DNA of 64,000 bases, taken from contig NZ_VLLE01000008.1 in assembly GCF_007830055.1 (NCBI RefSeq), positions 1-64,000 of the forward strand. Reading direction: 5' to 3'. Under the pieces are notes generated by a model. It had not been told where the DNA came from. It made no database searches and saw only the letters and a program-made list of their open reading frames with translations. Positions 1 to 17,187 of this stretch are shown piece by piece (position 1 is the first letter of the stretch; each line of letters begins with the position of its first letter). The DNA comes from Lacibacter cauensis. Its GTDB lineage: Bacteria > Bacteroidota > Bacteroidia > Chitinophagales > Chitinophagaceae. The translations under genes were made by a program, and so were the position numbers.

Positions 1-197
1 GATGCAGCAGCAATGATCGCTGCCTGCAAATCTTTTTTCGCCGTTGCCCAGCTAGTCCCCACACCACTATTATCAGGCCTGCCCGCATCTACATAGCGGA
101 TCGTTTGAGCAGAGGAAGTTGTTAAACAGACAAACAGCAGGAAAGCTGTCAATAAAACAAAAGGGTTACAACGCGGTGTTATGCTTATTTTTTTCAT
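1..197 (-). CDS. Secreted right-handed beta-helix type protein (N-terminal part only)
   Basis: The first 65 codons of a minus-strand gene whose remainder lies outside the window. It opens with a clear Sec signal peptide (two lysines, a hydrophobic stretch, cleavage likely after SSAQ or SSA). The mature part begins IRYVDAGRPDNSG then GTSWATAKKDLQAAI. That 'YVDA..G.....GTSWA.A..DLQ.AI' opening is typical of Bacteroidota secreted proteins with a parallel beta-helix (choice-of-anchor Q or T9SS-sorted). The specific function cannot be told from this end. The gene lies 64.5 bp downstream of the axis of a perfect palindrome that I treat as an activator site, and a TATACTTG box lies between them. ORF, signal peptide and start are seen directly; the family call is by recognised motif. 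Confidence 0.78.
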   Translation of the reverse strand, partial: MKKISITPRCNPFVLLTAFLLFVCLTTSSAQTIRYVDAGRPDNSGVGTSWATAKKDLQAAIIAAA

Positions 198-224
198 GCA
201 TTCAGGTTTGGTCAATGAATGCGG

Positions 225-271
225 CAAGTATAGTTTATTGTCGTGCAGGAAAAATTAACTTAAGTTAATTT
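225..271 (-). promoter_or_regulatory. Palindromic activator site plus -7 box for the beta-helix gene
   Basis: Positions 252-271 form a perfect 20-bp palindrome around CTTAAG (core TTAACTTAAGTTAA, axis 261.5). On the minus strand TATACTTG lies at 232-225 (centre 228.5), close to the Bacteroidota -7 consensus TAnnTTTG. The axis is 33 bp upstream of the -7 centre, about position -40, which is the class II site of Crp/Fnr-type activators. The same geometry recurs at 2758-2807 and 17144-17187. The regulator is inferred. Confidence 0.55.
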
Positions 272-877
272 ACATACACCCTGCAGCAAACAACATCGAC
301 TCTTTACACAGTTATTCCTACAAAAACGATGCAGTTGATCAGCACAGTAGTAAACTGGTCCTCACAAACAAAAAAATTGATCTCGGGAACATCTCCAATT
401 AACAGCAAAGCAGCTGTTCATAAGTTGTTGTTAACGCAAGCAGAAGCAGGAAACAAAAGAACCTGCCTACAGGTTACCTAGTTTACCGTGAAGCACCGGG
501 TCGATGCAACTGCAGACAATGAAGACCGGTTGGTACATGCAGTTAAAACAAAACTGGTTTTATTTTTTTTGTGAACCTACAATTGATTGGCCATACAAAT
601 GCTGCCCGAAAATAAAGGTGTATACAAAATGCTTATTGCATTGATCAACTTTGTGTCATTATCGATTTTTGATTGACGCCGCCAATCAAACGCAAGTCTC
701 AATGCGGTACTTTACCCAGCAAAATTCAGACAGCTTGCACGATGAAGGCGACGCCCTACATACAGAAGAGGATTTTATTACCGGAGAGCAGCATTTAGTA
801 GCAAGCTTAAAAACACGACCCGCTGCAGTAATGAAATTTACCGGTCTATCAATTCACTGATTGCAATTCCGCATGAA
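272..877. other. Intergenic, no supported gene
   Basis: About 600 bases with no convincing gene. The only reading frame of note (651-860, plus strand, 69 codons) lacks recognisable motifs and has a low-complexity, polar composition, so I do not call it. Confidence 0.5.
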
Positions 878-1516
878 TCATTTTTTACCAATTGGTTTCA
901 TTTTGTATTGTTTGAGTAAAACAGGAAGTGGTTCTACATTGTACTTCTTTCTTTCTTCGTCACTGGTCAGCGTTGTGTCAATCGGTGCTAAAAGTGTTTC
1001 TCCTGTTTGATCGTCAAATACAAATTGTGTTCCGAACTTCTGGTATCCAAAAGTGAATAGTAAATACCTGTCATAATTCAATGCAACGATTCTAGGAATA
1101 TACTGCTTTCTGATTAGTGCTGTATCATTGTTCTTTTCGAGCGTAGCCAATGCGCTTGAAGAAAGCGAATATGCCAGCAGAAAATTCTCCGGACTCAGAC
1201 TGGTCAATTCACCATCGCAGATTCTGGCAACTGTATGTTGCAAAATCCAGGCGGCTCTTAATTTATCTTTTGGCGTCACTACTTTATTTTCAGAAAGTAA
1301 ACGAAATATTTGTTCCCGGTGTTTTTTATCGTATTCCTCCAGATTAACGGTGTCTGTTTTAGCATCTAGCTCTCTTATCTCAATATCTTTTTTATACATC
1401 TGCTCTATTAAAGCATTGTCTTCTATTTTAATTTCCGTGTTATTCATTTCAAATGAACAACCGCCTAAAAAAAGAAAAAAAAGCAATGAAAAGAATATAG
1501 CTGCAACATTTCTCAT
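878..1516 (-). CDS. Uncharacterised lipoprotein
   Basis: A 212-residue protein with a textbook lipoprotein signal: M-R-N, a hydrophobic run, then LGGC with the lipidated Cys at residue 20. It should therefore be anchored in the periplasm or outer membrane. The mature part is charged and mostly helical (EYDKKHREQIFRLLSENKVVTPKDKLRAAWIL), followed by a region rich in aromatic residues ending YNVEPLPVLLKQYKMKPIGKK. I do not recognise the family. The gene stands alone, with a 128-bp gap from the end of the upstream same-strand gene at 1645, so it may have its own promoter. Possible roles, such as a processing or scaffold lipoprotein, cannot be separated from sequence. Confidence 0.82.
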   Translation of the reverse strand: MRNVAAIFFSLLFFLFLGGCSFEMNNTEIKIEDNALIEQMYKKDIEIRELDAKTDTVNLEEYDKKHREQIFRLLSENKVVTPKDKLRAAWILQHTVARICDGELTSLSPENFLLAYSLSSSALATLEKNNDTALIRKQYIPRIVALNYDRYLLFTFGYQKFGTQFVFDDQTGETLLAPIDTTLTSDEERKKYNVEPLPVLLKQYKMKPIGKK

Positions 1517-1644
1517 AACCTAACTTCAATAAATTGTTATGTAATTTTTCTTTATCTATTTATGTTTAGCAATTGACATAAAAGCTGAATTGAATTTTGA
1601 ATCTTTATCCTTTTACAGTAACCCTATCCCTATCTACATCAAGA

Positions 1645-2124
1645 CTACAAAGGCTTTTCATTTTTTTCCTGATCAACATAATGCCATTTCCATGCATAAA
1701 GGATAATCAGGCAAAGCAGCAGAACCTGTACAACCGTACCAAACAGCATGTGTGTCCAGGCCTCTCCGGCCAGGTTAAACAAGATAAAGGGAATGTTCAA
1801 CGCAGCAACTATGATATTGACCAGGCGATTGGCTTTTGCCGGAAGGGCAACAGAAAGAAAAATCATCAGTGCCGGAATTCCCACCAAGGCAAGTGCGATC
1901 AACAGAAACCCTTGCGTAATAGCAAAAACAATCACCTTCCCTGTCTGAATCTCTGCTATCTTGCCCGGCATATACAGGTGGAAATAATCAAGATAGAGAA
2001 TGATGAACAGCAAACTTGTCCACAGCAAAGCAAGCTTTACTTTCAAACTCACGTTACTCTGTTCGTGTGAATTCGTTGCTGCTTGATTTGTATGCATAAA
2101 CATTCCATTAAAAATTAAAGTCAA
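1645..2124 (-). CDS. DUF6326-like four-helix membrane protein
   Basis: 159 residues with four hydrophobic segments (about 28-47, 63-95, 103-120 and 125-148 from the first Met) and short charged loops. The first helix contains LWTSLLFIILYLDYFHLYMPG, a signature I associate with the DUF6326 family of small inner-membrane proteins of unknown function. The listed start could instead be Met8 or Met10 (2103 or 2097), which would shorten a non-conserved leader. It begins 6 bp after the stop of the gene at 2131-2730 and is almost certainly cotranscribed with it, so it would share the palindrome-controlled promoter at 2758-2807. Biochemical role unknown. Confidence 0.78.
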   Translation of the reverse strand: MTLIFNGMFMHTNQAATNSHEQSNVSLKVKLALLWTSLLFIILYLDYFHLYMPGKIAEIQTGKVIVFAITQGFLLIALALVGIPALMIFLSVALPAKANRLVNIIVAALNIPFILFNLAGEAWTHMLFGTVVQVLLLCLIILYAWKWHYVDQEKNEKPL

Positions 2125-2130
2125 AATGCA

Positions 2131-2730
2131 TTACCTGTTTTCTAAAAACCACTTTGCCCGTTTGTCGTCTAACTGCTTAAATCCATCAGCCAGTTTTGTT
2201 GATAAATAAGCTGTAGTAGGCCCCGGGATGGTTGAAAAAAAACGATGCTTAAACAATTTCATGTCGTAGCCAACACGGCAGGTATTGAAGAGCTGAAAGT
2301 CATTATCAATATTTTTGCCTTCATCATGCACAAACTTTTGCAATGTGTGTATTGGATTCATTTCAGCACAATGGTCCTTATGCAAAAAACGTTGGTACGG
2401 AACGGATAAACCAACCGCAGGTACATATCCCGGAAATTGTTCTTCCAGGTTAATATATGCTTTCTTAAAAAAGGGATGAATACTGTTCGGCCAGTCGTAC
2501 TTCCAGATTTTTGGTTCTACAGTCAGCGCAACTTTGCCTCTAATACGATAGCCGATATTGACTGGAACAAAGCCGGGATGGTTCACAGAAGACAGGTTGC
2601 CCAATAAAAACAACGTGCTGCCAACGAAGCACCACTTATAGCTGCTGTCTGTTTTTGCATATTGTGCAAGCACCTGTAAACTGCCTGTCATTACCAGGGT
2701 CTGTACCATCCACAACATTTTCATTTGCAT
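2131..2730 (-). CDS. Uncharacterised protein, first gene of the palindrome-controlled operon
   Basis: 199 residues. The N-terminus (MQMKMLWMVQTLVMTGSLQ) is weakly signal-peptide-like. The body has many aromatic residues and short alternating stretches (GYRIRGKVALTVEPKIW, NHPGFVPVNIGY) and two pairs of His/Cys around HKDHCAEMNPIHTLQKFVHDE, which could be a metal or haem site. I do not recognise the family. The start chosen is the first Met; Met3 (2724) is also possible. With the first Met, the start codon is 64.5 bp from the axis of the upstream palindrome, exactly as for the gene at 1-197. It heads a two-gene operon with the DUF6326-like gene and lies directly downstream of the Crp/Fnr-type gene. 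Confidence 0.72.
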   Translation of the reverse strand: MQMKMLWMVQTLVMTGSLQVLAQYAKTDSSYKWCFVGSTLFLLGNLSSVNHPGFVPVNIGYRIRGKVALTVEPKIWKYDWPNSIHPFFKKAYINLEEQFPGYVPAVGLSVPYQRFLHKDHCAEMNPIHTLQKFVHDEGKNIDNDFQLFNTCRVGYDMKLFKHRFFSTIPGPTTAYLSTKLADGFKQLDDKRAKWFLENR

Positions 2731-2757
2731 ATCTTCTCAACTGATGAACTGATGCTG

Positions 2758-2807
2758 CAAATGTGGATCGGAGGGATCGTATATTTCTTAACTTAAGTTA
2801 AGAAATA
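2758..2807 (-). promoter_or_regulatory. 26-bp perfect palindrome and -7 box between Crp/Fnr gene and operon 2730-1645
   Basis: Positions 2782-2807 are a perfect palindrome (core TTCTTAACTTAAGTTAAGAA, axis 2794.5), extended by GATCGT/ACGATC arms with a one-base offset. On the minus strand CACATTTG lies at 2765-2758 (centre 2761.5), 33 bp from the axis. It could fold as a hairpin after the regulator gene, but it has no T-tract, so a terminator is less likely than an operator. Confidence 0.6.
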
Positions 2808-2810
2808 CGA

Positions 2811-3389
2811 TCAGCTCTTTTTTTCATACATTCTTGCCCTTAGCCTGCTTAATGATTGCGGTTTGATCCCTAAATAGCTTGCCAGCTGCTGTTGCGGCAC
2901 CCTTTGAATAAGGTCTGGTCTGTTTTGCAGCAGGTTGCGGTAACGTTGTTCAGGTGAGGAAGTTTTAAATTCGTCAAAGTCGAAACGTTGTTTGGCCAGC
3001 AGTTCTTCTGACATTTTTCTGCACATGATTTCAAACTTTGGAAATTTACTGTTCATTTCTGCTTCCTTATCAGCATTTGAAATGGTAAGGACCGTATCTT
3101 CAATACAACTGATAAAATACTCAGAAGGCGTTTGATTGACAACACAATTAGGTGTCAGGGCTTCCATTTCTGTGTAGAACGCCGTTGTTTTTTCTTCTCC
3201 GTCCAATAAGTAATACGTGCGGATACAGCCTTTTAAAACAAAGTAGCTCTCTTTTGAATATTGTCCTTCCCTGAGTAAAATAGTACCCTTCGTTACTGTG
3301 TGAAAGATGTCCATTGGGAGAATCGCATCCTTTTCCTCTTCCGTGAGGGTAATGTACTTCGCTATAAAATCAAGTAGTATATCTTTCAT
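2811..3389 (-). CDS. Crp/Fnr-family transcriptional regulator
   Basis: 192 residues with an N-terminal cyclic-nucleotide-binding-like beta roll (about residues 20-115; GTILLREGQYSKESYFVLKGCIRTYYLLDGEEKT) and a short C-terminal helix-turn-helix (QLASYLGIKPQSLSRLRAR, about 165-187). This is the common short Bacteroidota Crp/Fnr architecture. The 'PSEYFISCIEDT' segment replaces the cAMP phosphate-binding cassette, so the effector is not obviously cAMP. It has no Fe-S cysteine set of the Fnr kind. It sits just upstream of a perfect palindrome whose copies occur in front of three transcription units, so I infer that it, or a close relative, binds TTAACTTAAGTTAA. A different palindrome (TACAATA-aaaa-TATTGTA, 3443-3460) lies about 60 bp upstream of its own start and may be an autoregulatory site. 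Confidence 0.88.
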   Translation of the reverse strand: MKDILLDFIAKYITLTEEEKDAILPMDIFHTVTKGTILLREGQYSKESYFVLKGCIRTYYLLDGEEKTTAFYTEMEALTPNCVVNQTPSEYFISCIEDTVLTISNADKEAEMNSKFPKFEIMCRKMSEELLAKQRFDFDEFKTSSPEQRYRNLLQNRPDLIQRVPQQQLASYLGIKPQSLSRLRARMYEKKS

Positions 3390-4062
3390 AGTTGACTATT
3401 CATACGTGTCCGTTTGTTACTCTTGCCGGCAAACGCACTTGTTACAATAAAAATATTGTACAATATAAAAACGAAGTTTTCTGCTGACCAAAAAATCGGT
3501 GTTATACTTTTTATATACTTATCCCTATCCCGCTTTTTGAATTAACCCTGTGTAGCATCAGCATTGTCTAAAGTTTATACACCACTATCACCTGCAAACA
3601 CTTTCAGCAGCATCGTTTTAAACTGCAGAAAGGGTAACTGGCCGTTTATTGGTCTATCACAAAAGGCCATTGTCTGCGGCCACTTACAGTTGACTATTAA
3701 TCATCCTGCCTTTTCCATTTGTTGTAATGCTGCTGAAAAAAACATTGTGTTCATTGTACTGTTACAGGCTCCGGTTTACGCAAGGTCCCCATTCTCGTTG
3801 CACCAATGAGCAACCTGAACAATTAGATGAGGTTGCCGGAATGAAAATACGATTCTATGTGAAAAAGCGCCAGCTCGAAAAAATAAGCTGCCGCAGTCCG
3901 ACTGTTTACCGATTAGCCGTGTATGCTGCGGAACTTTTCCATGCATTTCTGCACATTCCTTAAAACAGTCGCCCTGCATGCTATCCTGTCGGTAACTGTA
4001 GTCAGGTAATGAAATCATCCGCAACAGACGTTGCACAATTGTCAAGTGATACATGCTGTAAA
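3390..4062. other. Intergenic region between the divergent regulators
   Basis: About 670 bases with no supported gene. It holds the inverted repeat TACAATA-aaaa-TATTGTA at 3443-3460, close to the start of the Crp/Fnr-type gene. Overlapping frames on both strands at 3564-4054 have no protein-like features and are not called. Confidence 0.5.
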
Positions 4063-4100
4063 ATAAAATATACCAATTGGTATATTTTATCCTATATTTG
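4063..4100 (+). promoter_or_regulatory. TetR operator O1 and -7 box
   Basis: Positions 4063-4090 are a perfect 28-bp palindrome centred on TATACCAATTGGTATA (axis 4076.5). TATATTTG, a perfect Bacteroidota -7 box, follows at 4093-4100, only 7 bp before the tetR ATG at 4108, so the transcript is nearly leaderless. The operator covers the -33 region, as expected for an autorepressor. A matching site lies at 4725-4744. Confidence 0.75.
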
Positions 4101-4107
4101 TGTTATC

Positions 4108-4710
4108 ATGAGCAGTGCATCTACAAAAGCGGAACGAACAAAACAATTTATCGTTGAAAAAACAGCACCTGTTTTCAACGAAAAGGGCTTTGCCGGTACT
4201 TCACTCAGCGATCTGACCATTGCAACCGGTCTTACAAAAGGCAGTATTTACGGCAACTTTGAAAACAAGGATGAAGTGGCCCTTGCAGCCTTTGACTATA
4301 ATTTCGCCCGAATTACTAATTATATAAAAGACCGGATCTTACAAACGGACAGTGCAATTGAACGACTTTTAGTTTATCCCGAAGTATACCGGGAGTTTTT
4401 AAGTATCCCGTTTTTGAAACCCGGTTGCCCACTGTTAAATACCGCAACAGAAGCAGACGATACCCATCCTCTATTAAAAGAGCGAGTGGCCAAAGCACTT
4501 GCCTACTGGAAAACATCTTTAGAAAATCAAATCAAACGGGGAATACAACGAGGCGAAATAAAACCGGATACCAAACCAACGGAAATAGCTGTTATTTTAA
4601 TATCGCTGATTGAAGGAGCGATCATGCAGGCAAAAGTTACCGGCAAACCCGGTGAATTACGGATTGCAATGAATTTTCTAACGCAACTTATCAACGGATT
4701 AAAAGTGTAA
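4108..4710 (+). CDS. TetR/AcrR-family transcriptional repressor
   Basis: 200 residues starting MSSASTKAERTKQFIVEKTAP. The reading frame is open back to 4009, but Met at 4108 fits the family and follows the -7 box. The N-terminal HTH (about residues 10-60) has the classic pattern FNEKGFAGTSLSDLTIATGLTKGSIYGNFENKDEVALAAF. The C-terminal ligand domain is helical and contains KPGCPLLNTATEADDTHP, a segment typical of the TetR_C_16-like group. It autoregulates in all likelihood, because a 28-bp palindrome overlaps its promoter. A related palindrome between it and the next gene suggests that it also represses the downstream operon, which starts with the gene at 4760. The inducer is unknown; small electrophilic or lipophilic compounds are common for this group. 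Confidence 0.93.
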   Translation: MSSASTKAERTKQFIVEKTAPVFNEKGFAGTSLSDLTIATGLTKGSIYGNFENKDEVALAAFDYNFARITNYIKDRILQTDSAIERLLVYPEVYREFLSIPFLKPGCPLLNTATEADDTHPLLKERVAKALAYWKTSLENQIKRGIQRGEIKPDTKPTEIAVILISLIEGAIMQAKVTGKPGELRIAMNFLTQLINGLKV

Positions 4711-4724
4711 TTTTTTTGCATAAT

Positions 4725-4744
4725 AATATACCGATCGGTATATT
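4725..4744 (+). promoter_or_regulatory. TetR operator O2 in front of the 4760 operon
   Basis: A perfect 20-bp palindrome with core TATACCGATCGGTATA, the same TATACCNATNGGTATA pattern as the site before tetR. It lies 15 bp upstream of the ATG at 4760 and after the tetR stop. Downstream transcription therefore probably has its own repressible promoter. The -7 box is less clear here (TACTTTAT at 4754-4761). Confidence 0.7.
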
Positions 4745-4759
4745 TTATAAGAATACTTT

Positions 4760-5482
4760 ATGAACAGACTTTTGGAACAAACCATCCATGCGCACGGCGG
4801 ACTGGACAAATGGAATACGATTCAACAGGTCAAACTGCGGGCAACAATTGACGGTCTTCTTTGGAAGCTAAAAGGACAACCTACGCTTTTAAGGGATACC
4901 TATGTTGTTGTTGATACAAAACAACAAGCAGTCCGGTACAAACCTGTGAACGAAAAATGGTATACGTCATTTGAACCAAACCGGGTAGCTGCTTTTGCAC
5001 AAAACAACTGTCTGGAAGAATTGCAGGATCCCCGTCAATCGTTTGCCAACCATTCCAAAGAAACAAAATGGACAAGACTACAAACCTTCTACTTTGCGAG
5101 CTATGCCATGTGGAATTACATCAACATTCCCTATGTGTTTGCCGACCCTGCCTATCAGATCAAAGCCATCGGAACATGGCAGGAAAATAACGAAGAATGG
5201 CAACGCTTACAGGTACAATTTCCCGGACATGTTGCGACACACGCACCGGTGCAAACTTTTTACATTGATCAAAGCGGGCTGATTCGAAGGCATGATTACG
5301 ATGTAGCAATCATCGGCAATGGAAGAAGTGCCCACTATTTGTATGCTTACCAGGATATCAACGGGATAAAGATACCAACCCAACGTCGGGTGTTTACACG
5401 ACTGGAAAATAATACAGCACGGCAACCTGAACCCCTGCTCGTTGCAATAGACCTGACTGAAATTGTCCTGACAGTTGAATGA
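4760..5482 (+). CDS. Uncharacterised protein (LolA-like beta-rich), TetR-controlled
   Basis: 240 residues, cytosolic by sequence (no signal peptide). It opens LLEQTIHAHGGLDKWNTIQQVKLRATIDG, the 'HGG..KW..I..L' start seen in proteins with a LolA/LolB-like half-barrel that often sit beside TetR genes. The rest alternates strands with conserved aromatic residues (YASYAMWNYINIPYVF, then YIDQSGLIRRHDYDV, then YQDINGIKIPTQRRVF). Such folds bind lipid-like ligands, so a role tied to the neighbouring thioesterase is plausible but inferred. It is the first gene after operator O2, and its stop overlaps the start of the thioesterase gene (ATGA). Confidence 0.8.
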   Translation: MNRLLEQTIHAHGGLDKWNTIQQVKLRATIDGLLWKLKGQPTLLRDTYVVVDTKQQAVRYKPVNEKWYTSFEPNRVAAFAQNNCLEELQDPRQSFANHSKETKWTRLQTFYFASYAMWNYINIPYVFADPAYQIKAIGTWQENNEEWQRLQVQFPGHVATHAPVQTFYIDQSGLIRRHDYDVAIIGNGRSAHYLYAYQDINGIKIPTQRRVFTRLENNTARQPEPLLVAIDLTEIVLTVE

Positions 5483-6006
5483 ATAACAAGAACGCAGATC
5501 AATCAAACAAAATGGATACACTTAAAAAAATACTGGAAAGTAAAACAAGGATACAATACCAGGATTGCGATCCCTTTAATCATTTGAACAACGCCAAATA
5601 CATCGATTACATGATAGCTGCGAGAACAGAACAGTTACTCGACAACTATGCTTTCAATACAGCTGTCATTGCCAGAGACAAAGGCATTGGCTGGGTTGTC
5701 GTACAGACGCAGATTTCCTATTTCTATCCTGCTGTATGGCTTGAAAAAGTAACCACCGAAACCAAACTGATCGCCTATTCGGATGCCAGTTTATTGGTTG
5801 AAGCGATCATGTGGGATGAACACAAGACACAGCTTAAGGCAGTGATATGGTCAAAGCTGGTTCATTTCAATATCAACACGCAGCGGAGTTACAAACATAG
5901 CGAGGAACTGATGCAGTTCTTCAGCCAGATACATGTACCGATTGCCGACAATGCAAGCTTTGAGGAACGGGCAAAAACGTTGAAACAATTCAATCAAACC
6001 GTATGA
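5479..6006 (+). CDS. Hot-dog fold acyl-CoA thioesterase (4HBT/YbgC-like)
   Basis: 175 residues. The motif YQDCDPFNHLNNAKYIDYMIAARTE near the N-terminus is the 4HBT signature, with the catalytic Asp in 'DCDPFNHLNN'. The remaining strands (VVVQTQISYFYPAVWLEKVTTETKL) fit the hot-dog fold. The enzyme would hydrolyse an acyl-CoA or similar thioester in the cytosol. The start overlaps the previous stop (ATGA), giving a 12-residue polar leader; Met at 5512 (MDTLKK) is an equally reasonable start. It overlaps the PEBP gene by 4 bp, so 4760-6542 is translationally coupled. The substrate cannot be predicted. Confidence 0.9.
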   Translation: MNNKNADQSNKMDTLKKILESKTRIQYQDCDPFNHLNNAKYIDYMIAARTEQLLDNYAFNTAVIARDKGIGWVVVQTQISYFYPAVWLEKVTTETKLIAYSDASLLVEAIMWDEHKTQLKAVIWSKLVHFNINTQRSYKHSEELMQFFSQIHVPIADNASFEERAKTLKQFNQTV

Positions 6007-6542
6007 GACAACTACTTTTCGTTATCGTTCTGTTTGCAGGTGCCTTTGTGAATGCCCAAACATTCACCTTAAAAAGCAATGAACTGGGCGGACAGGCGAC
6101 CAACAAACAAGTCTTCAATGATTTTGGCTGTTCCGGTGAAAACAAGTCGCCGCAATTGTATTGGGAACATGCACCGGCCGGAACCAAAAGCTTTGCCGTT
6201 ACAGTTTACGATGAAAATGCACCTACCGGAAGCGGATGGTGGCACTGGGTGATCTTTGATATTGCGCCAACGATCACGCAACTGCAATCCGATGCGGGAA
6301 ATGTAACCGGCAGCAGGCAGCCTGCAAATGCGATACAGAGTAAAACAGATTTTGGCAAGCCGGGATACGGTGGCCCCTGCCCTGCACCGGGAAGCGGTTT
6401 TCATCAATACACAGTAACAGTCTATGCATTGGATACCGAAAAACTGGGCCTCGATGCCAACGCAAACCCGGCACTGGTTGGCTTTTACCTGACACAGCAT
6501 TTGCTTCAAAAAGCATCCCTTGTTTTTTACTACAAGCAATAA
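6003..6542 (+). CDS. YbhB/YbcL-family PEBP (Raf-kinase-inhibitor-like) protein, exported
   Basis: 179 residues with a signal peptide (MRQLLFVIVLFAGAFVNAQ). The mature domain shows the bacterial PEBP pattern: FGCSGENKSPQLYWEHAPAGTKSFAVTVYDENAPTGSGWWHWVIFDI, then the GYGGPCPAPGSGFHQYTVTVYALD block. These conserved Asp, Pro and His residues line the small anion or phosphate-binding pocket of the family. The biological role of bacterial homologues is poorly known. Unlike many homologues it is predicted to be periplasmic. Its start overlaps the thioesterase stop by 4 bp. Confidence 0.93.
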   Translation: MRQLLFVIVLFAGAFVNAQTFTLKSNELGGQATNKQVFNDFGCSGENKSPQLYWEHAPAGTKSFAVTVYDENAPTGSGWWHWVIFDIAPTITQLQSDAGNVTGSRQPANAIQSKTDFGKPGYGGPCPAPGSGFHQYTVTVYALDTEKLGLDANANPALVGFYLTQHLLQKASLVFYYKQ

Positions 6543-6651
6543 TACAGGAAGCGAAGCCTGTCCAACACGTTGTTGCTTTTTTGAACAGCAGTGTAAAAAA
6601 AAGAGGGCTGTTCAGCAGTGATCCAACTACAAAACTTCTAAATACGATCGT

Positions 6652-7224
6652 ATGAGTTACCTCGAAAGCGTACGCAAACAATTCGCCTATTACAAGCTGT
6701 TAGGCGATCAAACTTTTGCACAGGTGGATGAAGAAAAACTGTTCCGGCAATACAACGAAGACAGTAACAGCATTGCTGTCATCGTCAACCATTTATCGGG
6801 TAATATGCGCAGCCGCTGGACTGATCTTTTTACGACTGACGGTGAAAAAGAATGGCGCAACCGTGATGAAGAATTTGAAAACAACATCACTACCAAAGAA
6901 GAACTACTGCAAAAATGGAATGATGGCTGGAACCTGTTTTTTGAAACATTGAACAGCTTACAGGAAGAAGACCTTGAAAGAATAATTTATATCCGTAACC
7001 AGGGACACACTGTAATGGAAGCCATCAACAGACAGCTGGCACACTATCCCTATCATATCGGTCAGATCGTTTTTATCGGGAAAATGTATGCAGACAAATG
7101 GACGTCGCTGTCTATTCCGAAAGGGCAATCCACAACATTCAATCACGATAAATTTTCACAACCAAGAAGCAAGGTTCATTTCACAGATGAATTGTTAAAC
7201 CCATCTAACCAGCAACAAGCATGA
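6652..7224 (+). CDS. DUF1572 / DinB-like protein
   Basis: 190 residues. The pattern SIAVIVNHLSGNMRSRWTDLFTTDGEKEWRNRDEEF and later INRQLAHYPYHIGQIVFIGKM is typical of DUF1572, a DinB-type four-helix bundle. Three His (NHLSGNM, AHY, YHIGQ) are placed to bind a metal as in DinB/YfiT proteins. These proteins are often thiol-S-transferase-like or of unknown role. A 110-bp gap separates it from the PEBP gene, so a local promoter is possible. Its stop overlaps the next start by 4 bp. Confidence 0.87.
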   Translation: MSYLESVRKQFAYYKLLGDQTFAQVDEEKLFRQYNEDSNSIAVIVNHLSGNMRSRWTDLFTTDGEKEWRNRDEEFENNITTKEELLQKWNDGWNLFFETLNSLQEEDLERIIYIRNQGHTVMEAINRQLAHYPYHIGQIVFIGKMYADKWTSLSIPKGQSTTFNHDKFSQPRSKVHFTDELLNPSNQQQA

Positions 7225-7580
7225 TAACAACAGCAACGGCAAAAGCATTTGCAACAGCATGGATCGATGCATGGAACAGTCATAGCATTGAAAACATACT
7301 GGCACATTATGAAAACAATGTGCTGTTTTATTCGCCGATGATTCCCTTATTGCAATTCAATGAACAGGGATTTATCACTAACAGAACTGAACTGAAAAAG
7401 TATTTTGAAACAGGACTGCGTACCTACCCCAACCTGCATTTTCAATTACAGCACTGTTTTGCAGGCATCGATTCTGTTGTGCTCTGTTACATTTCCGTAA
7501 ACGGAACATTAGCAGCTGAAGTTTTTGAATTGAGTGAAAACAGAAAAGCCATAAGGGTGCTTTGTAACTACGCCACCTGA
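7221..7580 (+). CDS. NTF2-like / SnoaL-like protein
   Basis: 119 residues, cytosolic, matching the NTF2-like alpha+beta cone: AWIDAWNSHSIENILAHYENNVLFYSPM at the N-terminus, then ELKKYFETGLRTYPNLHFQL and GTLAAEVFEL. Members are small enzymes (isomerases, cyclases) or ligand-binding proteins; no catalytic dyad can be named with confidence here. It is translationally coupled to the DUF1572 gene through an ATGA overlap. A 135-bp gap follows, without an obvious terminator. Confidence 0.85.
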   Translation: MITTATAKAFATAWIDAWNSHSIENILAHYENNVLFYSPMIPLLQFNEQGFITNRTELKKYFETGLRTYPNLHFQLQHCFAGIDSVVLCYISVNGTLAAEVFELSENRKAIRVLCNYAT

Positions 7581-7715
7581 GCAACGCCTTTTTCCCGGAG
7601 ACGAAAACTGCTGCAAGCAAAAGCGATGCAAGCAGTAAACTAAAAGCAACTGTACGCAACTGCGTTATAAAGCAAACCCATTTTTACAGATTTCATCGAC
7701 CAATAAAAAAATCAA

Positions 7716-8414: not shown

Positions 8415-8425
8415 AACCATACTAC

Positions 8426-9895: not shown

Positions 9896-9900
9896 ACACG

Positions 9901-10416
9901 ATGCGCTCTACCATCATCCATGCAACTGCAGATGATCTGCCGGTGATCTACGGGCTTTTTGAAGAAGCTATCCGGTTTCAAAAGGCCAACAATTTCACCG
10001 GCTGGAAGCAGTATGACAAAGCATTTATCAAGGCAGATATTGCCAACGGGCTTTTGTACAAGATCGTCTCAGACAAGGATACAGCCTGTATTTTCAGTAT
10101 TTGTTTCAGCGATGCGTTGATATGGCGTGAACGGGAAAAAGGCCATGCACTTTACCTGCACCGTGTGGTACTGAATAGGAAGTATGCAGGCACCCACATG
10201 TTCGGGCAGGTGCTTGCATGGGCACAGCAATTGGCAAAAGAACGCAAACTCCAGTTCTTACGGATGGACACCTGGGCAGACAACCGAAAGCTCATTGCTT
10301 ACTATCAAAGCTTTGGTTTTGCAGTCATCGAAACATATACAACGCCGGGAACCATAGAGCTGCCGGTGCAGCACAGGAATCTCCATGTAGCATTACTGGA
10401 AAGACCCGTCAACTAA
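9901..10416 (+). CDS. GNAT-family N-acetyltransferase
   Basis: 171 residues. Acetyl-CoA-binding motif A is present in divergent form (VVLNRKYAGTHMFGQVLAWAQQLAKER), followed by FLRMDTWADNRKLIAYYQSFGFAVIETY, the classic GNAT motif B ('D....N....Y...GF'). The N-terminus (TADDLPVIYGLFEEAIRFQ) also fits. Substrate unknown. It starts 5 bp after the permease stop, so it is part of the same transcription unit. Confidence 0.92.
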   Translation: MRSTIIHATADDLPVIYGLFEEAIRFQKANNFTGWKQYDKAFIKADIANGLLYKIVSDKDTACIFSICFSDALIWREREKGHALYLHRVVLNRKYAGTHMFGQVLAWAQQLAKERKLQFLRMDTWADNRKLIAYYQSFGFAVIETYTTPGTIELPVQHRNLHVALLERPVN

Positions 10417-10436
10417 AGTATCCGAAAATATAAAAC

Positions 10437-10868
10437 ATGCCAATGAACAATCAGCTACTCATTCATGTGATCAAAACGATTGCATACCGGTTTGTCAAAT
10501 CCACAACGGGTTCGACCGCTACTTTTGGAACATTGAAAATAAATGACCACACCCGTAGTCCAAATGAGATCATCTTTCATATGTATGATCTGGCGGTGAA
10601 AACAACAACGATGATCAAGGAAGGTCACTTCAATGTACCGATACCACAGCCTCTCAATTTTCACGATGAACAAAAACGGTTTCTAACAGCATTACAGGAT
10701 CTACAAAGCGTGCTGGAGGAATCGCATCTTGAACAGGCGTTAAGTCAAAAACTATTGCAGGGTCCACTGCTGGATATGGTTACGCATGTCGGCCAGTTGG
10801 CGATGCTCAATGGTATCCATGGCAACAGGATCCCCAAAGAAAGTTATTTCAATGCCAAAATCAATTAA
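10437..10868 (+). CDS. DinB-superfamily-like protein
   Basis: 143 residues, helical. The C-terminal HVGQLAMLNGIHGNRIPKESYFNAKI is characteristic of a DinB-like group in Bacteroidota, and IIFHMYDLAVKTTTMI supplies the first His-containing helix. Metal ligands would be the His residues of FHMYD and THVGQ. The function of this group is unknown. The start is the first Met at 10437; MNNQ at 10443 is an alternative. It is the second DinB-type protein of this operon after the one at 6652. Confidence 0.82.
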   Translation: MPMNNQLLIHVIKTIAYRFVKSTTGSTATFGTLKINDHTRSPNEIIFHMYDLAVKTTTMIKEGHFNVPIPQPLNFHDEQKRFLTALQDLQSVLEESHLEQALSQKLLQGPLLDMVTHVGQLAMLNGIHGNRIPKESYFNAKIN

Positions 10869-10875
10869 GGAATCT

Positions 10876-11811
10876 ATGCAGAACAGCAAAAAAACAATTT
10901 ATATCATTGGTGCAGGTGCCATCGGCAAAGCGTTGGCCGTCTTTCTTACGCAGGCGGGCAAAAAGGTTGTACTGCTTCGTGGACATGTTCATGGTATAAC
11001 TGCACATGTTGAACACATTGAAGTAGAACTGCGTGATGGTCAGACGGCCGAGGCGGATATTGCTGTAAGCAGCATGGATCATTATCCGCATCTGGACGGG
11101 ATCCTTGTTATCACAACCAAATCATACGGCAATCCGCAGATCGCTTCATTCCTGAAAGGGAAAACAGGTAACTCACCTGTTGTTCTCCTGCAAAACGGAT
11201 TGAACGTGGAAGCCGCATTTACAAGCAATGCCTTCCCGGAAATTTATCGCTGTGTATTGTTTGCTTCTTCACAGTATACTGCTGAGCTAAGGCTGCGCTT
11301 TATGCCTGCATCCGTTTCACCGATCGGTGTAGTAAAAGGAAGTTTGGAAAACCTCGCTGCGATCATTGAAACCCTGGATAACCGGCAGCTTGTTTTTAAA
11401 GTTGAAGAAACGATTCAGCCCATCATCTGGACAAAAGCAATTATCAACAGTGTTTTTAATTCTATCTGTCCCTTACTTGAAACAGACAACGGTATCTTCT
11501 ACCGCAATCAAGATGCACAAAGCATCGCCAGAACAATCATTGATGAATGCATTGGAGTTGCAGCAAACGAAGGTATCCTGTTGGATGCGGATCAAGTGGT
11601 AAAGCAATTGTTGTTGATCAGCAAAACTTCTGAGGGGCAGCTCATTTCTACCTACCAGGATCTGCTGCATAAGCGTAAAACAGAAATTGAAACACTGAAC
11701 ATCACAATTGCAGCAATAGCAGACCAACAGCACAAAAAAGAATTAACCAGAAACACGTTGCTATTGGGTAAATTAATCCAGTTAAAATCGGCAATCACCA
11801 TGCCAGCATAA
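10876..11811 (+). CDS. Ketopantoate reductase (PanE/ApbA)-like oxidoreductase
   Basis: 311 residues from the chosen start MQNSKKTIYIIGAGAIGKALAVFL, 7 bp after the preceding stop. The frame is open further upstream (10786), but that part overlaps the previous gene. The GxGxxG Rossmann motif (IIGAGAIGKAL) binds NADP. VLLQNGLNVE and WTKAIINSVFNSICPLLETDNG match the PanE catalytic region, with the Lys in 'WTKAIINS' as the likely catalytic residue. The reaction would be NADPH reduction of 2-dehydropantoate or another 2-oxo acid. Since it ends an amino-acid-related operon, it may be a paralogue with another substrate. Confidence 0.9.
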   Translation: MQNSKKTIYIIGAGAIGKALAVFLTQAGKKVVLLRGHVHGITAHVEHIEVELRDGQTAEADIAVSSMDHYPHLDGILVITTKSYGNPQIASFLKGKTGNSPVVLLQNGLNVEAAFTSNAFPEIYRCVLFASSQYTAELRLRFMPASVSPIGVVKGSLENLAAIIETLDNRQLVFKVEETIQPIIWTKAIINSVFNSICPLLETDNGIFYRNQDAQSIARTIIDECIGVAANEGILLDADQVVKQLLLISKTSEGQLISTYQDLLHKRKTEIETLNITIAAIADQQHKKELTRNTLLLGKLIQLKSAITMPA

Positions 11812-13312
11812 ATAATCAGTGTAATGCAGCATTTAACAACAACTTTTTCGTACAAACGCCTGCTTTCTGTAAAAGCCAACATCCACAGTTCAATCCTCAC
11901 CGACACGAAACAGTCTTTGTTATCTGCACTGATCGGCAGAATCGGTTCCAGTTGTATCAATATCTGCTACGAAAACAAATGTTTTCCGTCTGCACAAAAA
12001 TTAACCTAATTGTTTTTTACTGTACCTAATCAATTTCACTGAATGCAATTTTTTGCAAAGTTGTCCCGCATCCCTTTTGACATGGATGTACTCAGCAATG
12101 GTCCTAGCGTTGAGCAATGAATTGTACCAGAAAATAAACAGGAATACGCATCAGCAGATCATGGTTTACGTTTTCGATTTTTAAAGTATCAATCCGCCCA
12201 CACCTGTCAGCAAACAGAATCCGGTCTTTTCACGCTGCTGCAAATGCAGGATCAAAGCTGCTCTGCTTTTATTTTCACCGATAACTGACCTGGTTCTGAT
12301 CTAATCATTTCGCTTACGGCAAATACGATTATCTTATGATGTTCTGTATGCGCCACGGTAACGATTTTCGCACGCTTTATTTCGTCGGTTCAATTTGCAG
12401 CAAAGTTATTGATGACATGGTAAGGGATTGTCAACACCAATCTGTTTCTACACTCAAAGCTTGTACAACTACCATCAAAAGGGTCTGTTTTTCGCCATAC
12501 GCTCTTTCTGAAACCGCTTACCTGTTAAGCATGGCAGGTCCGGGGGGGTACGTCAATCAACCCGTCCGTTCGATATCCTCTTTTACATCTGAACATGCAA
12601 AAAAGAACAAATGAAAATCGGTGGAAACCGGTTATTCATTCTGCAGATAATAACAAAAAAGTCAACTGATCATTTTATCGTTATTCATTCCGCATTACCT
12701 CATCATTAATACCTGTCTTAAAAAAGTTTATATACCCTATCAGCTGCGTACAATTAATCTTTGCTGCCGTCCATGCACCCTTTTACATTTTCTCGCAGAT
12801 CGTCTTGCACTGCAGACAAATAAGGACAGCAAAAAATATTGCTCCTTTCACAGAATATAGAGGAGCCAGCAGAAAAGGGTTCTACGCTGTTTCACCGTTG
12901 ACAACATGTTTTATGCCGGAGCTTACCGGCTTTCCACATCTGTATCATTCATCGACAACATTCAATGCCCGGAAGGTTGTCACAATGTTTGTATCATCAA
13001 AACCCTGAATAATGAATCCTAAAATTAAACGGCACAGCCGGAACTACTCATTCACTTAAGTTAAGAAAATAAGCAGCGGGCAGAACGCACCGGAGACAGT
13101 ACTGTATTTCTATCGTGAACAGATCAAGTACTGAATAACCAGAAGTGATTGCGCATAAATAAACAGTTGACTGCTCTATCCAATCCGTTGATAGCCGTGT
13201 AGTACAGTGTTAGCTTTCAACAATAACAAAAAGTCTGTAAGCAACCGTAAGCAGCTCTGCAGTTAATGCATGAATATGCTTTGTCCATTCAACACAAGTA
13301 AATCGTCGGGGC
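11812..13312. other. 1.5 kb gene-poor stretch
   Basis: No gene can be supported. Short open frames occur on the plus strand (12336-12614, 12805-13008) but lack motifs, upstream signals and protein-like composition. An imperfect copy of the TTAACTTAAGTTAA palindrome (TTCACTTAAGTTAA) lies at 13051-13064, without a -7 box at the spacing seen for the other three copies. The region may be decayed sequence or long untranslated DNA. Confidence 0.5.
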
Positions 13313-13756
13313 CTAATAAACCAATACCGGTTTGCCTTCTTCACAAACAACAGACTTGGGCGCTGGTTCTACCATACAATCTGAACCAATGGCATACTTC
13401 CGATTATATTCCTGTGCCTGCTTATTATAACAGTCGAGCACTTTCAGAAAACACTCTGCATTCTCTTTTTTGTAAGCGATATAACCCGCCGGCCCACCAC
13501 AAGGTTTTGCACCGATACCGGCAATTCCCCATTGATCACCCCGTTGGCAGGATGAAGATTGAGAAGCAAGGTAAACCGCATCAGATAGTTTTTTGAGTAC
13601 AGCCTGATCAAATACTTTTGAACTTTTTGTTGTAATAACATCCGAAGGCATGCTGCAAGCTGGGTCCCCGCAACCCATATCCATGTGTTCCATTTTACAG
13701 GCACTTAGTAAGGTCAAAAGAAAGAGCATTGCAAAAACCGAAATTATTTTTTTCAT
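13313..13756 (-). CDS. Cys-rich lipoprotein of a Bacteroidota-specific family
   Basis: 147 residues. A lipoprotein signal peptide ends LLSAC, with the lipidated Cys at residue 20. The mature part holds CGDPACSMP, then SSCQRGDQWGIAGIGAKPCGGPAGYIAY and ends CEEGKPVLVY. The 'IG.KPCGGP..YIAY' block and the terminal 'C..GKPVLVY' recur in a family of short Bacteroidota lipoproteins whose function I do not know. The several Cys residues suggest disulfides in the periplasm. The gap to the DUF4249 gene is 84 bp, so it may be the last gene of the TonB/DUF4249 transcript or separate. Confidence 0.85.
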   Translation of the reverse strand: MKKIISVFAMLFLLTLLSACKMEHMDMGCGDPACSMPSDVITTKSSKVFDQAVLKKLSDAVYLASQSSSCQRGDQWGIAGIGAKPCGGPAGYIAYKKENAECFLKVLDCYNKQAQEYNRKYAIGSDCMVEPAPKSVVCEEGKPVLVY

Positions 13757-13840
13757 ATCATTTTTTTTTATTCTGACAATCCATTACAAATCACCGTTGC
13801 ACCCGAACCCGTATTTAACACTCACTAAACGAAGCATTAT

Positions 13841-14641
13841 TTATTGTACTGTGACGGTTCGCTTTTGATAGGTATGCGCACTGAAAATACCGATTGCCTT
13901 TCCTTTAATATTACTCACCGGATTATCCGGAACAGCAAATGGTCTGCCGGTTGAAGATTGCGAAAAACTAAACCAATATTTATAATTAGCATTGTCAACA
14001 CAATTCATTACAACATCAATCACATCTCCTTTCTTAAATTCATCCGCTTCTCTTGAATAAATCAACGGAAATGTACTTTTTCTTCCTTCAATAAAAACAT
14101 CATCAAATGCAAAGGCATCCTTAATCAACCGGCCATTCTTATACATGAAAAACGTATAGTTATTTCCTGTTCCAACCGGATCGTTGAAATACGGAGTAAC
14201 AACCTTGATCACTTTTCCAAAGGAGGGAAAATCTTCCACAACCAACGAATCAAAGTTGACCATTACCGGCATCTTAGAACTGGAAGTAATGGTAAGTCCA
14301 TCTGTTGTTACAACCCGCAGATTGTACGTTTTGTTTGTACTACCAACAAGACCCTTGTTTTGATAAACACCGGTTGATACTTCCGGTAAAGAATAAACAG
14401 CTCCATTATCTTCCTGGATGGTAACATTTGCGCCGGTTAATGGCACGATGCTGTTATCGGATTTCACTTTATTGGTATAAGATAATTTCACCACACTTCC
14501 TGCTGTTAAATCATTGGTCACCTGTCCATCAACCACAATAACCGGAGCTGCATGCTTTAACTCCAGATCAATTACTTTTTCGCAACCTGTCATACTGAAT
14601 AACAGTACGCTTACAGCGATGATTAAATATTTTTTTTCCAT
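13841..14641 (-). CDS. DUF4249-family lipoprotein
   Basis: 266 residues with a lipobox ending MTGC (Cys20). The first mature residues, EKVIDLELKHAAPVIVVDGQVTND, followed by VKLSYTNKV and NVTIQEDNGAVYSL.....TGVYQN, are diagnostic of DUF4249, an outer-membrane lipoprotein family encoded almost always next to a TonB receptor. It begins 22 bp after the receptor gene, in the usual order receptor then DUF4249. It probably acts as the surface-exposed or periplasmic accessory lipoprotein of that transporter. The substrate is unknown. Confidence 0.93.
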   Translation of the reverse strand: MEKKYLIIAVSVLLFSMTGCEKVIDLELKHAAPVIVVDGQVTNDLTAGSVVKLSYTNKVKSDNSIVPLTGANVTIQEDNGAVYSLPEVSTGVYQNKGLVGSTNKTYNLRVVTTDGLTITSSSKMPVMVNFDSLVVEDFPSFGKVIKVVTPYFNDPVGTGNNYTFFMYKNGRLIKDAFAFDDVFIEGRKSTFPLIYSREADEFKKGDVIDVVMNCVDNANYKYWFSFSQSSTGRPFAVPDNPVSNIKGKAIGIFSAHTYQKRTVTVQ

Positions 14642-14663
14642 TTGCTTGGTATGTATAATTTGA

Positions 14664-16994
14664 TTAAAATTTAAAATTGTATGATACAGATGGCACCCAT
14701 CGGAATAAACTGGTTTGTGTTATTTCGATGACATTGGGGTTCTCTTTATTGTCCTTGAAATTGATCGTGTAAGCATTTTCCCGCCCGTAAACATTGTATA
14801 AGCTAAAAACCAATTCTTTCGTCCATTTTTTTGTTTTCTTTAATTGCATCGTGGCGCCAAGATCCAAACGATGATAGTTCGGCATCCGGTCAGCATTTCT
14901 GCTGTCGTAATAATAAGCCGTTTGCCCATTCACCTGGTATTTACCCGTCGGAAGAGTGACCGCATTGCCGGTATAAAAAACAAAGTTTCCACTAAGCGTC
15001 CATTTCTTACTCAACTGGTAAATTCCTACAATGGACAGGTCATGTGTACGATCCTGCGTTGCGTTGTACCATTTATTATTATTGATACCGTTGATTTTTC
15101 TTTCTGATTTGCTTAACGTGTAACTGATCCATCCTGTGATGATGCCTGTTTTTTTCTTTAGCATCAACTCTAAGCCATAGGCCCTGCCTGTTCCAAAAAG
15201 CAATTGCGCTTCTACTGTTTCATTTAAAAATAAGTCTGCACCATTTCGGTAATCCAGCACATTCTCCATTTCCTTGTAATAAGCCTCAGCCGTAAATTCA
15301 TAATTATTCATCAAAACGTTTGCGTAATAACCTACACTAAACTGGTTACTGATCTGGGGTTTAATGATATTACTTGTACTCGCCCATTTATCCAACGGAC
15401 TGGAACCATTTGAATTGGTTATCTGATGCATGTATTGGGCATTGCGTGTAAATGAAGCTTTGATGGACGAAGCCGCATTCAGCATAAAGCCAACAGCAAT
15501 TCTTGGCTCCAGGTTATAGTACGATTTTACAACCTCACCTCTTTCATATTTGATTGTGTCTTTAATTGTACCGTTTTCGTCGATGTTAAAGAAACTTCCC
15601 CCACCCATGACATTGAACCCACTAAGCCTTGCACCAAGTGTAACAGTTAAATTTTTAGTGGGTTTAAACACATTGCTTGCATAAACGGCATTTTCATAGG
15701 AAAATCGCTTATCCTGCACTTTATTGCTGATACTGGAAGTAGCATTGGCAGTAATTTCTCCCGGACGAATAATGTGATAGATACCAGACCATCCGAATCG
15801 CAGGTTGTTTTTATTATTGATGCTATACTGGTAATCCTGTTTTAGATTCCAGTCTCTTATCTGTGAGAAGATCCTGATATCGTTGGTACCATTTCTAACC
15901 TTGAACTCATAGTTGTAATTACTGAATATTAAGGAGGTATTTAAAAACAAACGGCTATTAAAAATATGATTCCAACGCAGCGTTCCGGTTCCGTTTCCCC
16001 AGTTGGTTTTAAACTGATTATTGAACCCTAAAATATCCTTGCCAAAATATCCACTTAAATAAAGCTTATCTTTTTTACCCAGTTCATAGTTCAGCTTTGC
16101 ATTGAGATCGTAGAAATACAATTGATTACCCTTGTATTTCTCGTCCATCTTCAGAAACACATCTGCATAAGTCCGTCTGCCGGTAATAAGAAAAGAAGAT
16201 TTATTTTTTTGAATCGGCCCTTCAATGTTCAGCTTTGCACTAATAAGTCCCAAACTGCCACTAACAGCGGTATGCTGATTATTACCCTCATTCATTCGTA
16301 TATCAAGTACACTGCTTAATCGTCCACCGTACTGCGCCGGCATTCCTCCCTTGTATACTGCTATATCTTTTACGGCATCACTGTTAAACGTAGAAAAGAA
16401 TCCAAACAAATGTGCTGCATTATAAATATTGGCTTCGTCTAAAATGATCTGATTCTGATCGGTACTTCCGCCTCGTACAAAAATACCGCTGCTTCCATCG
16501 CCTGCAGTTTTTATACCCGGAAGTAATTGAATCGTTTTTAAAAGATCTTTTTCACCGAAAATCACCGGAATATTTTTTGTTTCCTGAACCGACAATCGTT
16601 CAATACCCATTTGCGAACCGGTAACGGACCGTCCGGAAGACCGGTTGCCGGTAATGGTGATCCCTGTCAACTCGTAATTAGCATCGGCAAGGCTTATATT
16701 CTTTTCGGTATTACTGACCAAATTGATACTGATCGTATCGGGTGATTTTCCAATTGCACTGTATACAATCCGGTAGGTTGCAGGCAGCAATGAAATGCTG
16801 TAAAAGCCATATTCATTTGATGTGGTGCCATAGTTGCTGTTTAACACTTTGATACTGGCTCCAATAATAGACTCGCCATTATTTTTACTCTTAATACTGC
16901 CACTGATAGTGTAGTTTTTCTGCGCAATTGCATTACCCGCTGAGCAGAAAAAGGAAAGCAAGAACAGGGCTTTCACTGTTTTTCGAATGTTCAT
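14664..16994 (-). CDS. TonB-dependent outer membrane receptor with carboxypeptidase-regulatory-like N-terminal domain
   Basis: 776 residues. After a signal peptide (residues 1-24) comes a carboxypeptidase-regulatory-like beta domain (YTISGSIKSKNNGESIIGASIKV..., about 28-110). The plug follows (NIPVIFGEKDLLKTIQLLPGIK... GIFVRGGSTDQNQIILDEANIYNAAHLFGFFSTFN, about 130-235), then a large beta barrel ending YNFKF with a terminal Phe. The plug motif GGSTDQNQIILDEA is typical of receptors paired with DUF4249. It takes up an unknown compound across the outer membrane with TonB/ExbBD energy. Transcription probably starts about 145 nt upstream, at the palindrome-linked promoter at 17144-17187. Confidence 0.95.
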   Translation of the reverse strand: MNIRKTVKALFLLSFFCSAGNAIAQKNYTISGSIKSKNNGESIIGASIKVLNSNYGTTSNEYGFYSISLLPATYRIVYSAIGKSPDTISINLVSNTEKNISLADANYELTGITITGNRSSGRSVTGSQMGIERLSVQETKNIPVIFGEKDLLKTIQLLPGIKTAGDGSSGIFVRGGSTDQNQIILDEANIYNAAHLFGFFSTFNSDAVKDIAVYKGGMPAQYGGRLSSVLDIRMNEGNNQHTAVSGSLGLISAKLNIEGPIQKNKSSFLITGRRTYADVFLKMDEKYKGNQLYFYDLNAKLNYELGKKDKLYLSGYFGKDILGFNNQFKTNWGNGTGTLRWNHIFNSRLFLNTSLIFSNYNYEFKVRNGTNDIRIFSQIRDWNLKQDYQYSINNKNNLRFGWSGIYHIIRPGEITANATSSISNKVQDKRFSYENAVYASNVFKPTKNLTVTLGARLSGFNVMGGGSFFNIDENGTIKDTIKYERGEVVKSYYNLEPRIAVGFMLNAASSIKASFTRNAQYMHQITNSNGSSPLDKWASTSNIIKPQISNQFSVGYYANVLMNNYEFTAEAYYKEMENVLDYRNGADLFLNETVEAQLLFGTGRAYGLELMLKKKTGIITGWISYTLSKSERKINGINNNKWYNATQDRTHDLSIVGIYQLSKKWTLSGNFVFYTGNAVTLPTGKYQVNGQTAYYYDSRNADRMPNYHRLDLGATMQLKKTKKWTKELVFSLYNVYGRENAYTINFKDNKENPNVIEITQTSLFRWVPSVSYNFKF

Positions 16995-17143
16995 AATAAT
17001 ACTTGTTTAGCTACTTTTAGAGGACTATGAGTAATGAAAATGAAAGCCAATAAGAGAATACGAGAAAATTTATTTACCGCTTTGGTGCTTCTTGTTTGAG
17101 TAGTCATTTATTACCAATAATCCTTTTGTAAAAAAGGAATGCG

Positions 17144-17187
17144 CAAAAGTGACGTTGTAAGATGAATGAATAATTAACTTAGGTTAA
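17144..17187 (-). promoter_or_regulatory. Palindromic activator site plus -7 box for the TonB receptor/DUF4249 operon
   Basis: Positions 17174-17187 hold TTAACTTAGGTTAA, one mismatch from the perfect palindrome at 252-271 and 2782-2807 (axis 17180.5). On the minus strand CACTTTTG lies at 17151-17144 (centre 17147.5), exactly 33 bp from the axis, the same spacing as the other two sites. The start codon is at 16994, so a leader of about 145 nt is predicted. Confidence 0.5.

Follow-up and report, generated by a model that had tools for sequence, protein, structure and literature searches.

The closest described relatives of the element discussed here are the operators of Crp/Fnr-type regulators. 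The FNR/DNR site is quoted as TTGATnnnnATCAA in a comparative study (PMC1274295), which also reports that P. gingivalis combines a Gln at the position of CRP E181 with a motif unlike the common one, pairs a Pro at E181 with GTAACnnnnGTTAC and describes such a link for CRP positions 180 and 181. In CprK, where Val-192 corresponds to FNR Glu-209, a crystal structure explains the link between helix and site for Val (PMC2610375). Here we describe a 14-bp palindrome that recurs at a fixed distance from the -7 box in a stretch of 64,000 nt from Lacibacter cauensis (GCF_007830055.1, contig NZ_VLLE01000008.1, positions 1–64,000), which we call the window; its contig is referred to as C7, and further contigs of the genome as C4 and C1. 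To our knowledge, operators have been established for few Bacteroidota regulators other than those of gut genera. We consider the palindrome to be the operator of the adjoining Crp/Fnr regulator and of its paralogues, which would act as local class II activators (probability about 0.86); binding, activation, start sites and signal are what we infer from the sequence.

The palindrome and its box in the window and in the genome

The elements on which the argument rests are the following.

255–268, minus strand: candidate operator TTAACTTAAGTTAA, perfect palindrome, before the secreted-protein gene labeled beta-helix
225–232, minus strand: -7 box TATACTTG, centered 33 bp from the palindrome axis
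2788–2801, minus strand: candidate operator TTAACTTAAGTTAA, perfect palindrome, 9 bp behind the stop codon of the regulator gene
2758–2765, minus strand: -7 box CACATTTG, centered 33 bp from the axis
17174–17187, minus strand: candidate operator TTAACCTAAGTTAA, one mismatch, before the TonB-receptor gene
17144–17151, minus strand: -7 box CACTTTTG, centered 33 bp from the axis
13051–13064, minus strand: degenerate copy TTAACTTAAGTGAA, one mismatch, with TTTT/TTTA replacing TTTG and no clear gene behind it
2811–3389, minus strand: Crp/Fnr-family regulator gene (from Pfam and the nearest structure), 192 aa, recognition helix PQSLSRLR

A sequence-only reading of the window had pointed to three promoters that share the palindrome and a TTTG/CTTG box at one spacing, and the coordinates bear this out, as they do the distance of 64.5 bp between axis and start codon at the 255 and 2788 sites. 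This second distance is not kept in relatives, where the starts lie +11 to +166 past the box. The copy at 13051 had been taken as a comparison devoid of the box; TTTG is indeed absent, but with TTTT at +27 to +30 and TTTA at +28 to +31 it is a degenerate copy and not a clean control.

The window contains four copies of the palindrome with one mismatch at most, where shuffled sequence gave 0.04 on average. Over the 4.95 Mb covered by the whole-genome scans there are five perfect copies of TTAACTTAAGTTAA, where 0.09 would be expected from the dinucleotide content of 177 kb of the genome (P ~5e-8), while the five one-mismatch copies are not significant by themselves (3.5 expected). At two to three mismatches there is no enrichment, either in the window (6 vs. 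10.4) or in the genome (27 vs. 55 for the reversed control), so that the signal is confined to near-exact sites, and a regulon defined genome-wide by such a loose motif was rejected for the same reason.

The sequence YTTG stands at bases 27–30 past the 14-mer in all five perfect copies and in three of the five one-mismatch copies, the other two reading TTTA (C4:32722) and TTTT (C7:13051); for a single site, the chance of finding it at the fixed spacing on either side is 0.028. When the pattern TTAACnnnnGTKAA followed by 26 bases and YTTG was searched, nine places were found in the genome and none with the reversed pattern, whereas, once the box requirement is dropped, pattern and control come out alike (37 and 36 strand readings). 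The 33-bp spacing is a rule throughout the genome, so that the genome scan proposed in the sequence-only reading came out in its favor. The nine places are distributed as follows.

C7:2788, C4:23970, C1:1134188 and C1:1143980: behind close Crp paralogues
C4:25391: before a barrel gene
C7:255 and C4:28351: before two related secreted-protein genes
C7:17174: before the TonB receptor
C7:75883: upstream of an S15-family hydrolase gene, at a distance of 440 bp

The box begins at +27 in all nine, against +28 in relatives (73 of the 75 loci with TTTG; eight genus relatives), a one-base shift that affects the whole regulon.

Conservation behind the regulator gene

We compared the surroundings of the regulator gene in the best 80 of 130 related loci (their handles begin with L), whose regulators are 72–82% identical. 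They come from Runella, Spirosoma, Emticicia, Dyadobacter, Chitinophaga, Pedobacter, Flavobacterium and others, many being metagenome bins, a few of them labeled as other phyla. A site TTAACTTAAGTGAA (two mismatches at most) was found within 400 bp behind the regulator gene in 78 of the 80, mostly about 10 bp past the stop codon, and in the two misses (L048 and L103) it lies 491 and 847 bp away, before a barrel gene. Upstream of the regulator gene, a stretch of equal length contained a site in one of the 80 loci, three of which have less than 400 bp there. TTTG follows the site in 75 of the 78 loci, beginning at +28 in all but two of these, where it begins at +27. The next gene belongs to a family of predicted outer-membrane barrels of about 207 aa in 74 of the 78, to DUF6326 in three and to another membrane protein in one. 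Site plus box can be read 30 more times, in 29 loci, in most cases ahead of a second barrel gene; TTTG is at +28 in 29 of these readings, with no more than three at any other offset between 10 and 49. The comparison with orthologous promoters thus agrees with what had been read from the window, in that the site is kept behind the Crp/Fnr orthologue, and together with the fixed genome-wide spacing it supports the original interpretation.

Site and regulator also go together across genomes. For the class, 198 genomes (handles beginning with G, like those of the other genomes compared) were sampled, and the regulator was counted as present at 61% identity or more; seven carry it, and six of these have the exact site plus TTTG, against two of the 191 others (Fisher 2.5e-9); the seventh (G111) has a site with two mismatches and the box. 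Within the genus the figures are 9/9 with the regulator and 0/5 without. In a wider set of 59 relatives, a gap of 26–27 bases gave matches in 13 genomes and one of 19–20 bases in none.

The regulator and its recognition helix

The gene at 2811–3389 had been rightly recognized as a Crp/Fnr regulator adjoining the second site. Its product matches the cNMP_binding domain (PF00027; 1.1e-7, 32.2 bits, over the cut-off of 27.5), and its nearest solved structure is 3dn7 (E 3e-30). There are three close paralogues in the genome (86, 83 and 69% identity), and each of the four genes ends between -9 and +10 bp from a site. Cysteines 55, 82, 95 and 123 are nearly invariant in this subfamily (115, 107, 113 and 115 of 116 sequences) and less common among the other Crp genes (22, 4, 20 and 6 of 90), while no cysteine precedes residue 55 in 39 of 40 aligned regulators, the remaining one (L122) having a single cysteine at 47. 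Our guess is that the subfamily may use the four cysteines to sense a redox or metal signal and so control the outer membrane. A search of phage families gave no match for the regulator or for the barrel protein. An autoregulatory site before the regulator gene was considered and rejected, a TTGTACAA-like palindrome being present in only 3 of 77 loci. In the window (L127), the regulator gene is preceded, at about 77 bp, by the perfect palindrome ATATTGTACAATAT; similar ones are present in 3 of 77 related loci.

Q178, the varying residue of the recognition helix, occupies in the alignment the position of the E in the ETISR helix of FNR. A natural swap is provided by a relative of 72% identity with the helix PVSLSRLR (V for Q), in which the corresponding site, again ahead of a gene of the barrel family, reads TTATCTTAAGATAA. 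To extend the comparison we used 78 other Crp genes, eight from the same genome and 70 from 12 genus genomes. Twenty of them have a perfect palindrome between -10 and +50 bp around the stop codon with [ACT]TTG exactly at +27, where 20 rounds of shuffling gave a mean of 0.25 and at most one. In the 200 bp behind each gene, helices with ETLSR go with TTGA[CT] in 23 of 29 cases and ERLSR in 2/2, GPSLSR or PPSLSR with TTAAC in 5/5, QVSLSR with TTATC in 2/2, ATNFSK with TTGGT in 6/6 and TQLSR with TTTAC in 1/2, although the half-site types were chosen after an earlier look at the data and the genes of a family are related, so that these counts are not independent. None of the listed types was ever found with the helix of another group among the 78 genes (TTGA[CT] was confined to helices with E, and TTAAC to those with P, Q or ESLSR); none at all was found behind 35 of the 78, among them four of the five PQSLSR genes and, QVSLSR apart, all four genes with VSLSR or VSMSR.

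With a rule blind to the half-site, 134 of the 197 distinct genes have a site (98 of the 113 that belong to the focal cluster, 36 of the 84 others); most genes of 38–52% identity were judged only in this way, the helix patterns matching only some of the loci. Under the blind rule we rejected a one-residue code in which E at 178 would dictate G at base 3. Six of the 10 E clusters with a site fit it, cluster 14 is mixed and clusters 13, 23 and 37 are against, as is cluster 2 (TTGGT) among the 10 non-E clusters with a site. Residue 179 seems to matter too. The match between helix and site supports the assignment of the operator, but the principle is not new, since the published CRP/FNR comparisons show the same link.

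Two other Crp families deserve mention. One with the helix PETLSRIRK (L138, C2:482274–482831; L258, L259, L263, L265, L266, L267 and L269) has FNR-format palindromes, TTGACatatGTCAA for example, immediately after the stop codon; L138 has a series of two or three similar ones ahead of the next gene. The other, with the helix DATNFSK (L136, L240, L245, L247, L248 and L249), has TTGGTttttACCAA behind the stop codon in 6/6, with the box at +27.

Neighboring genes and the duplicated cluster

The genes next to the window sites are these.

1–197, minus strand: start of a secreted protein (beta-helix in the sequence-only reading), cut by the contig end; 80% identity over 64 aa to the C4 copy
878–1516, minus strand: 212-aa protein of the duplicated cluster, without assigned function or Pfam match; 72% to its C4 counterpart
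1645–2097, minus strand: DUF6326 membrane protein gene (PF19851, 4.5e-8)
2131–2730, minus strand: predicted outer-membrane barrel gene, 199 aa, putative primary target; 61% to the C4 copy over residues 1–194
13841–14641, minus strand: gene behind the TonB receptor, DUF4249 label not confirmed
14664–16994, minus strand: TonB-dependent receptor gene (CarbopepD_reg_2 and Plug, from Pfam)

Positions 1–3389 of the window are a paralogue of C4 23–31 kb (L017, C4:20001–31000), so the whole cluster is present on two contigs, with identities of 86% for Crp, 61% for the barrel, 68% for DUF6326, 72% for the 212-aa protein and 80% for the start of the secreted protein, which on C4 is an 828-aa protein with Por_Secre_tail (PF18962). 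Since this is one duplicated cluster, the 255 and 2788 promoters are not independent of the C4 promoters. The barrel copy of the window is probably degenerate and decaying, because near its end the frame departs from the family sequence, lacks the last strand and ends early; the C4 copy, on which the fold behind the barrel assignment was computed, is full length. The DUF6326 gene probably shares a transcript with the barrel gene. What had been called a two-gene operon of unknown function is therefore better described as a degenerate barrel gene followed by a DUF6326 gene, and the gene at 13841–14641 gave no Pfam match above cut-off that would sustain its reading as DUF4249.

Directly behind C4:23970 and C1:1134188 there are only remnants of a barrel gene. 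No remnant of barrel, Crp or DUF6326 genes was found by tblastn near 13051, 17174 or 75883. The TonB site is a single one, and about 0.5 chance sites of equal quality are expected in the genome (37 strand readings × 0.014); a single recruitment of the site by the TonB promoter is plausible. A gene resembling type I phosphodiesterase/nucleotide pyrophosphatase precedes the regulator gene in the C4 (L017, 1–1920) and C1 (L018, 10133–12118) cassettes, the Pfam assignment having been made on the C4 copy.

Proposed mechanism and alternative explanations

In the mechanism that we propose, a dimer of the regulator would bind an FNR-format site, TTAAC-n4-GTTAA (or GTGAA), and the bound site, at about -41.5, would stand in for the -33 element and recruit RNA polymerase to a weak -7 box. 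The ancestral unit would be a local cassette, present in many Bacteroidota, of regulator gene, operator behind its stop codon and gene for a barrel of about 207 aa. In this genome the cassette occurs four times, twice with only a barrel remnant directly behind the site, one cluster being duplicated, and the same site and spacing are also found in front of a secreted-protein gene (twice), the TonB-receptor operon and, at 440 bp, the S15 hydrolase gene. The position -41.5 is the classical one for class II activators, and a site placed there replaces the -33 element. In Flavobacterium psychrophilum TAnnTTTG spans -12 to -5 (PMC9723704), which would put the axis at -41.5 when TTTG starts at +27 or at -42.5 when it starts at +28, as in most relatives. 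The class II geometry thus fits if TTTG ends at -5 as in that species.

The palindrome behind the regulator gene could also be read as the transcription terminator of that gene. At 2788 the transcript hairpin right behind the stop codon is strong (-16 kcal/mol, z -6.3; z is -2.6 at 255 and -2.0 at 17174), but the single relative that was folded (L047), in which one half reads GTGAA, has no hairpin (z +1.1), and the sites at 255, 17174 and 75883, like those of the second barrel genes, sit in promoters at the fixed distance from the box, so we regard a terminator as extremely improbable. Somewhat less remote, although still very unlikely, is that a single promoter was duplicated and that the common spacing, not being under selection, reflects nothing else. 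The clusters on C7 and C4 are indeed paralogous and barrel remnants are found behind C4:23970 and C1:1134188; the same element, however, stands behind regulators of 72–82% identity in many genera, and at the TonB and S15 promoters a tblastn search for barrel remnants was negative. The position of the site, for its part, leaves the sign of regulation unfixed, and the regulator might act there as a repressor, or a different factor might bind while the Crp gene is a mere neighbor. We hold this to be unlikely: a repressor would need no single fixed spacing, site and regulator co-occur, and where the adjoining regulator has a different helix the half-site differs as well.

Several observations weigh against a local class II activator bound at the palindrome. 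A site at -41.5 suggests activation without proving it. The TonB and S15 sites, judged by position and quality only, are not individually significant. On the side of the protein, HTH_Crp_2 scores below the Pfam cut-off (0.0018, 18.6 bits vs. 27), the profile aligning through the helix-turn-helix of FNR and 3dn7, and the structure model is poor (pLDDT 59), so that the fold rests on sequence. The TTAAC site is absent in four of the five PQSLSR genes outside the focal cluster, and L065 has a TTAAC site in spite of an E at 178, both of which speak against a one-residue code. Five genomes (G046 and G049 of the class sample; G211, G214 and G226 of the wider set) have one exact site with box each and no regulator. 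Conversely, the site is lost with regulators of lower identity: no site lies beside the 61% regulator gene G041:C36:71595 or beside that of G213 (58%), which has two exact sites elsewhere; G250 (61%) has a two-mismatch site without box, and G217 (71%) a one-mismatch site with box but also a second copy (54%) without site.

Comparison with known systems

A literature search for the exact 14-mers returned only one unrelated yeast paper, and a description of the cassette was not found in the literature searched, most subscription papers lying outside the search. The regulators would form a new subfamily of an already known kind. What it offers is a probable operator supported across many genera, with a testable outer-membrane target, and a simple rule for finding candidate operators of further Crp/Fnr genes (right behind the stop codon, with TTTG 27–28 bases on). 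It also extends the known E181/E209 recognition code by Q, V and further residues. In a wider generalization, to which we give even odds, the short Crp/Fnr regulators of Bacteroidota would widely be self-contained cassettes (regulator gene, operator shortly after its stop codon, then the -7 box of the next gene at a fixed distance), the helix and half-site of paralogues would diverge together (ETLSR with TTGAC/T, QSLSR and PSLSR with TTAAC, QVSLSR with TTATC, ATNFSK with TTGGT and ATQLSR with TTTAC), and the four-cysteine subfamily may sense redox or metals and control the outer membrane. If this is true, the DNA code of Crp regulators could be read genome by genome.

With FNR/DNR the system shares a 14-bp site of two 5-bp half-sites and a 4-bp center, a sensor of cNMP fold with a putative helix-turn-helix, and the register xExxSR of the helix. 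It differs in having Q for E (Q-xx-SR) and TTAAC for TTGAT; moreover, the N-terminal cysteine cluster (4Fe-4S) of FNR is absent, and the regulator, of 192 aa, ends right after the recognition helix. HcpR2, whose site is GTAACnnnnGTTAC and which is present in Bacteroides, resembles it in the xxAAC half-site with a non-E residue and in being a local regulator beside its target, but that target is hcp, while here the next gene is a barrel and the site is TTAACTTAAGTGAA, with different outer bases (PMC1274295). CprK (TTAATnnnnATTAA) has the same site format, and in it the Val at the position of FNR E209 sets a pyrimidine requirement; unlike the regulator described here, it governs halorespiration, with another ligand and in another phylum (PMC2610375). 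The hly box of PrfA in Listeria has identical half-sites, TTAAC-n4-GTTAA, a comparison that concerns the site only, and the targets differ (PMC7221254). The nearest solved relative is 3dn7, a cyclic nucleotide binding regulatory protein of 194 aa, which matches the regulator over nearly its full length, with PEYLSE in the recognition helix where PQSLSR is found here.

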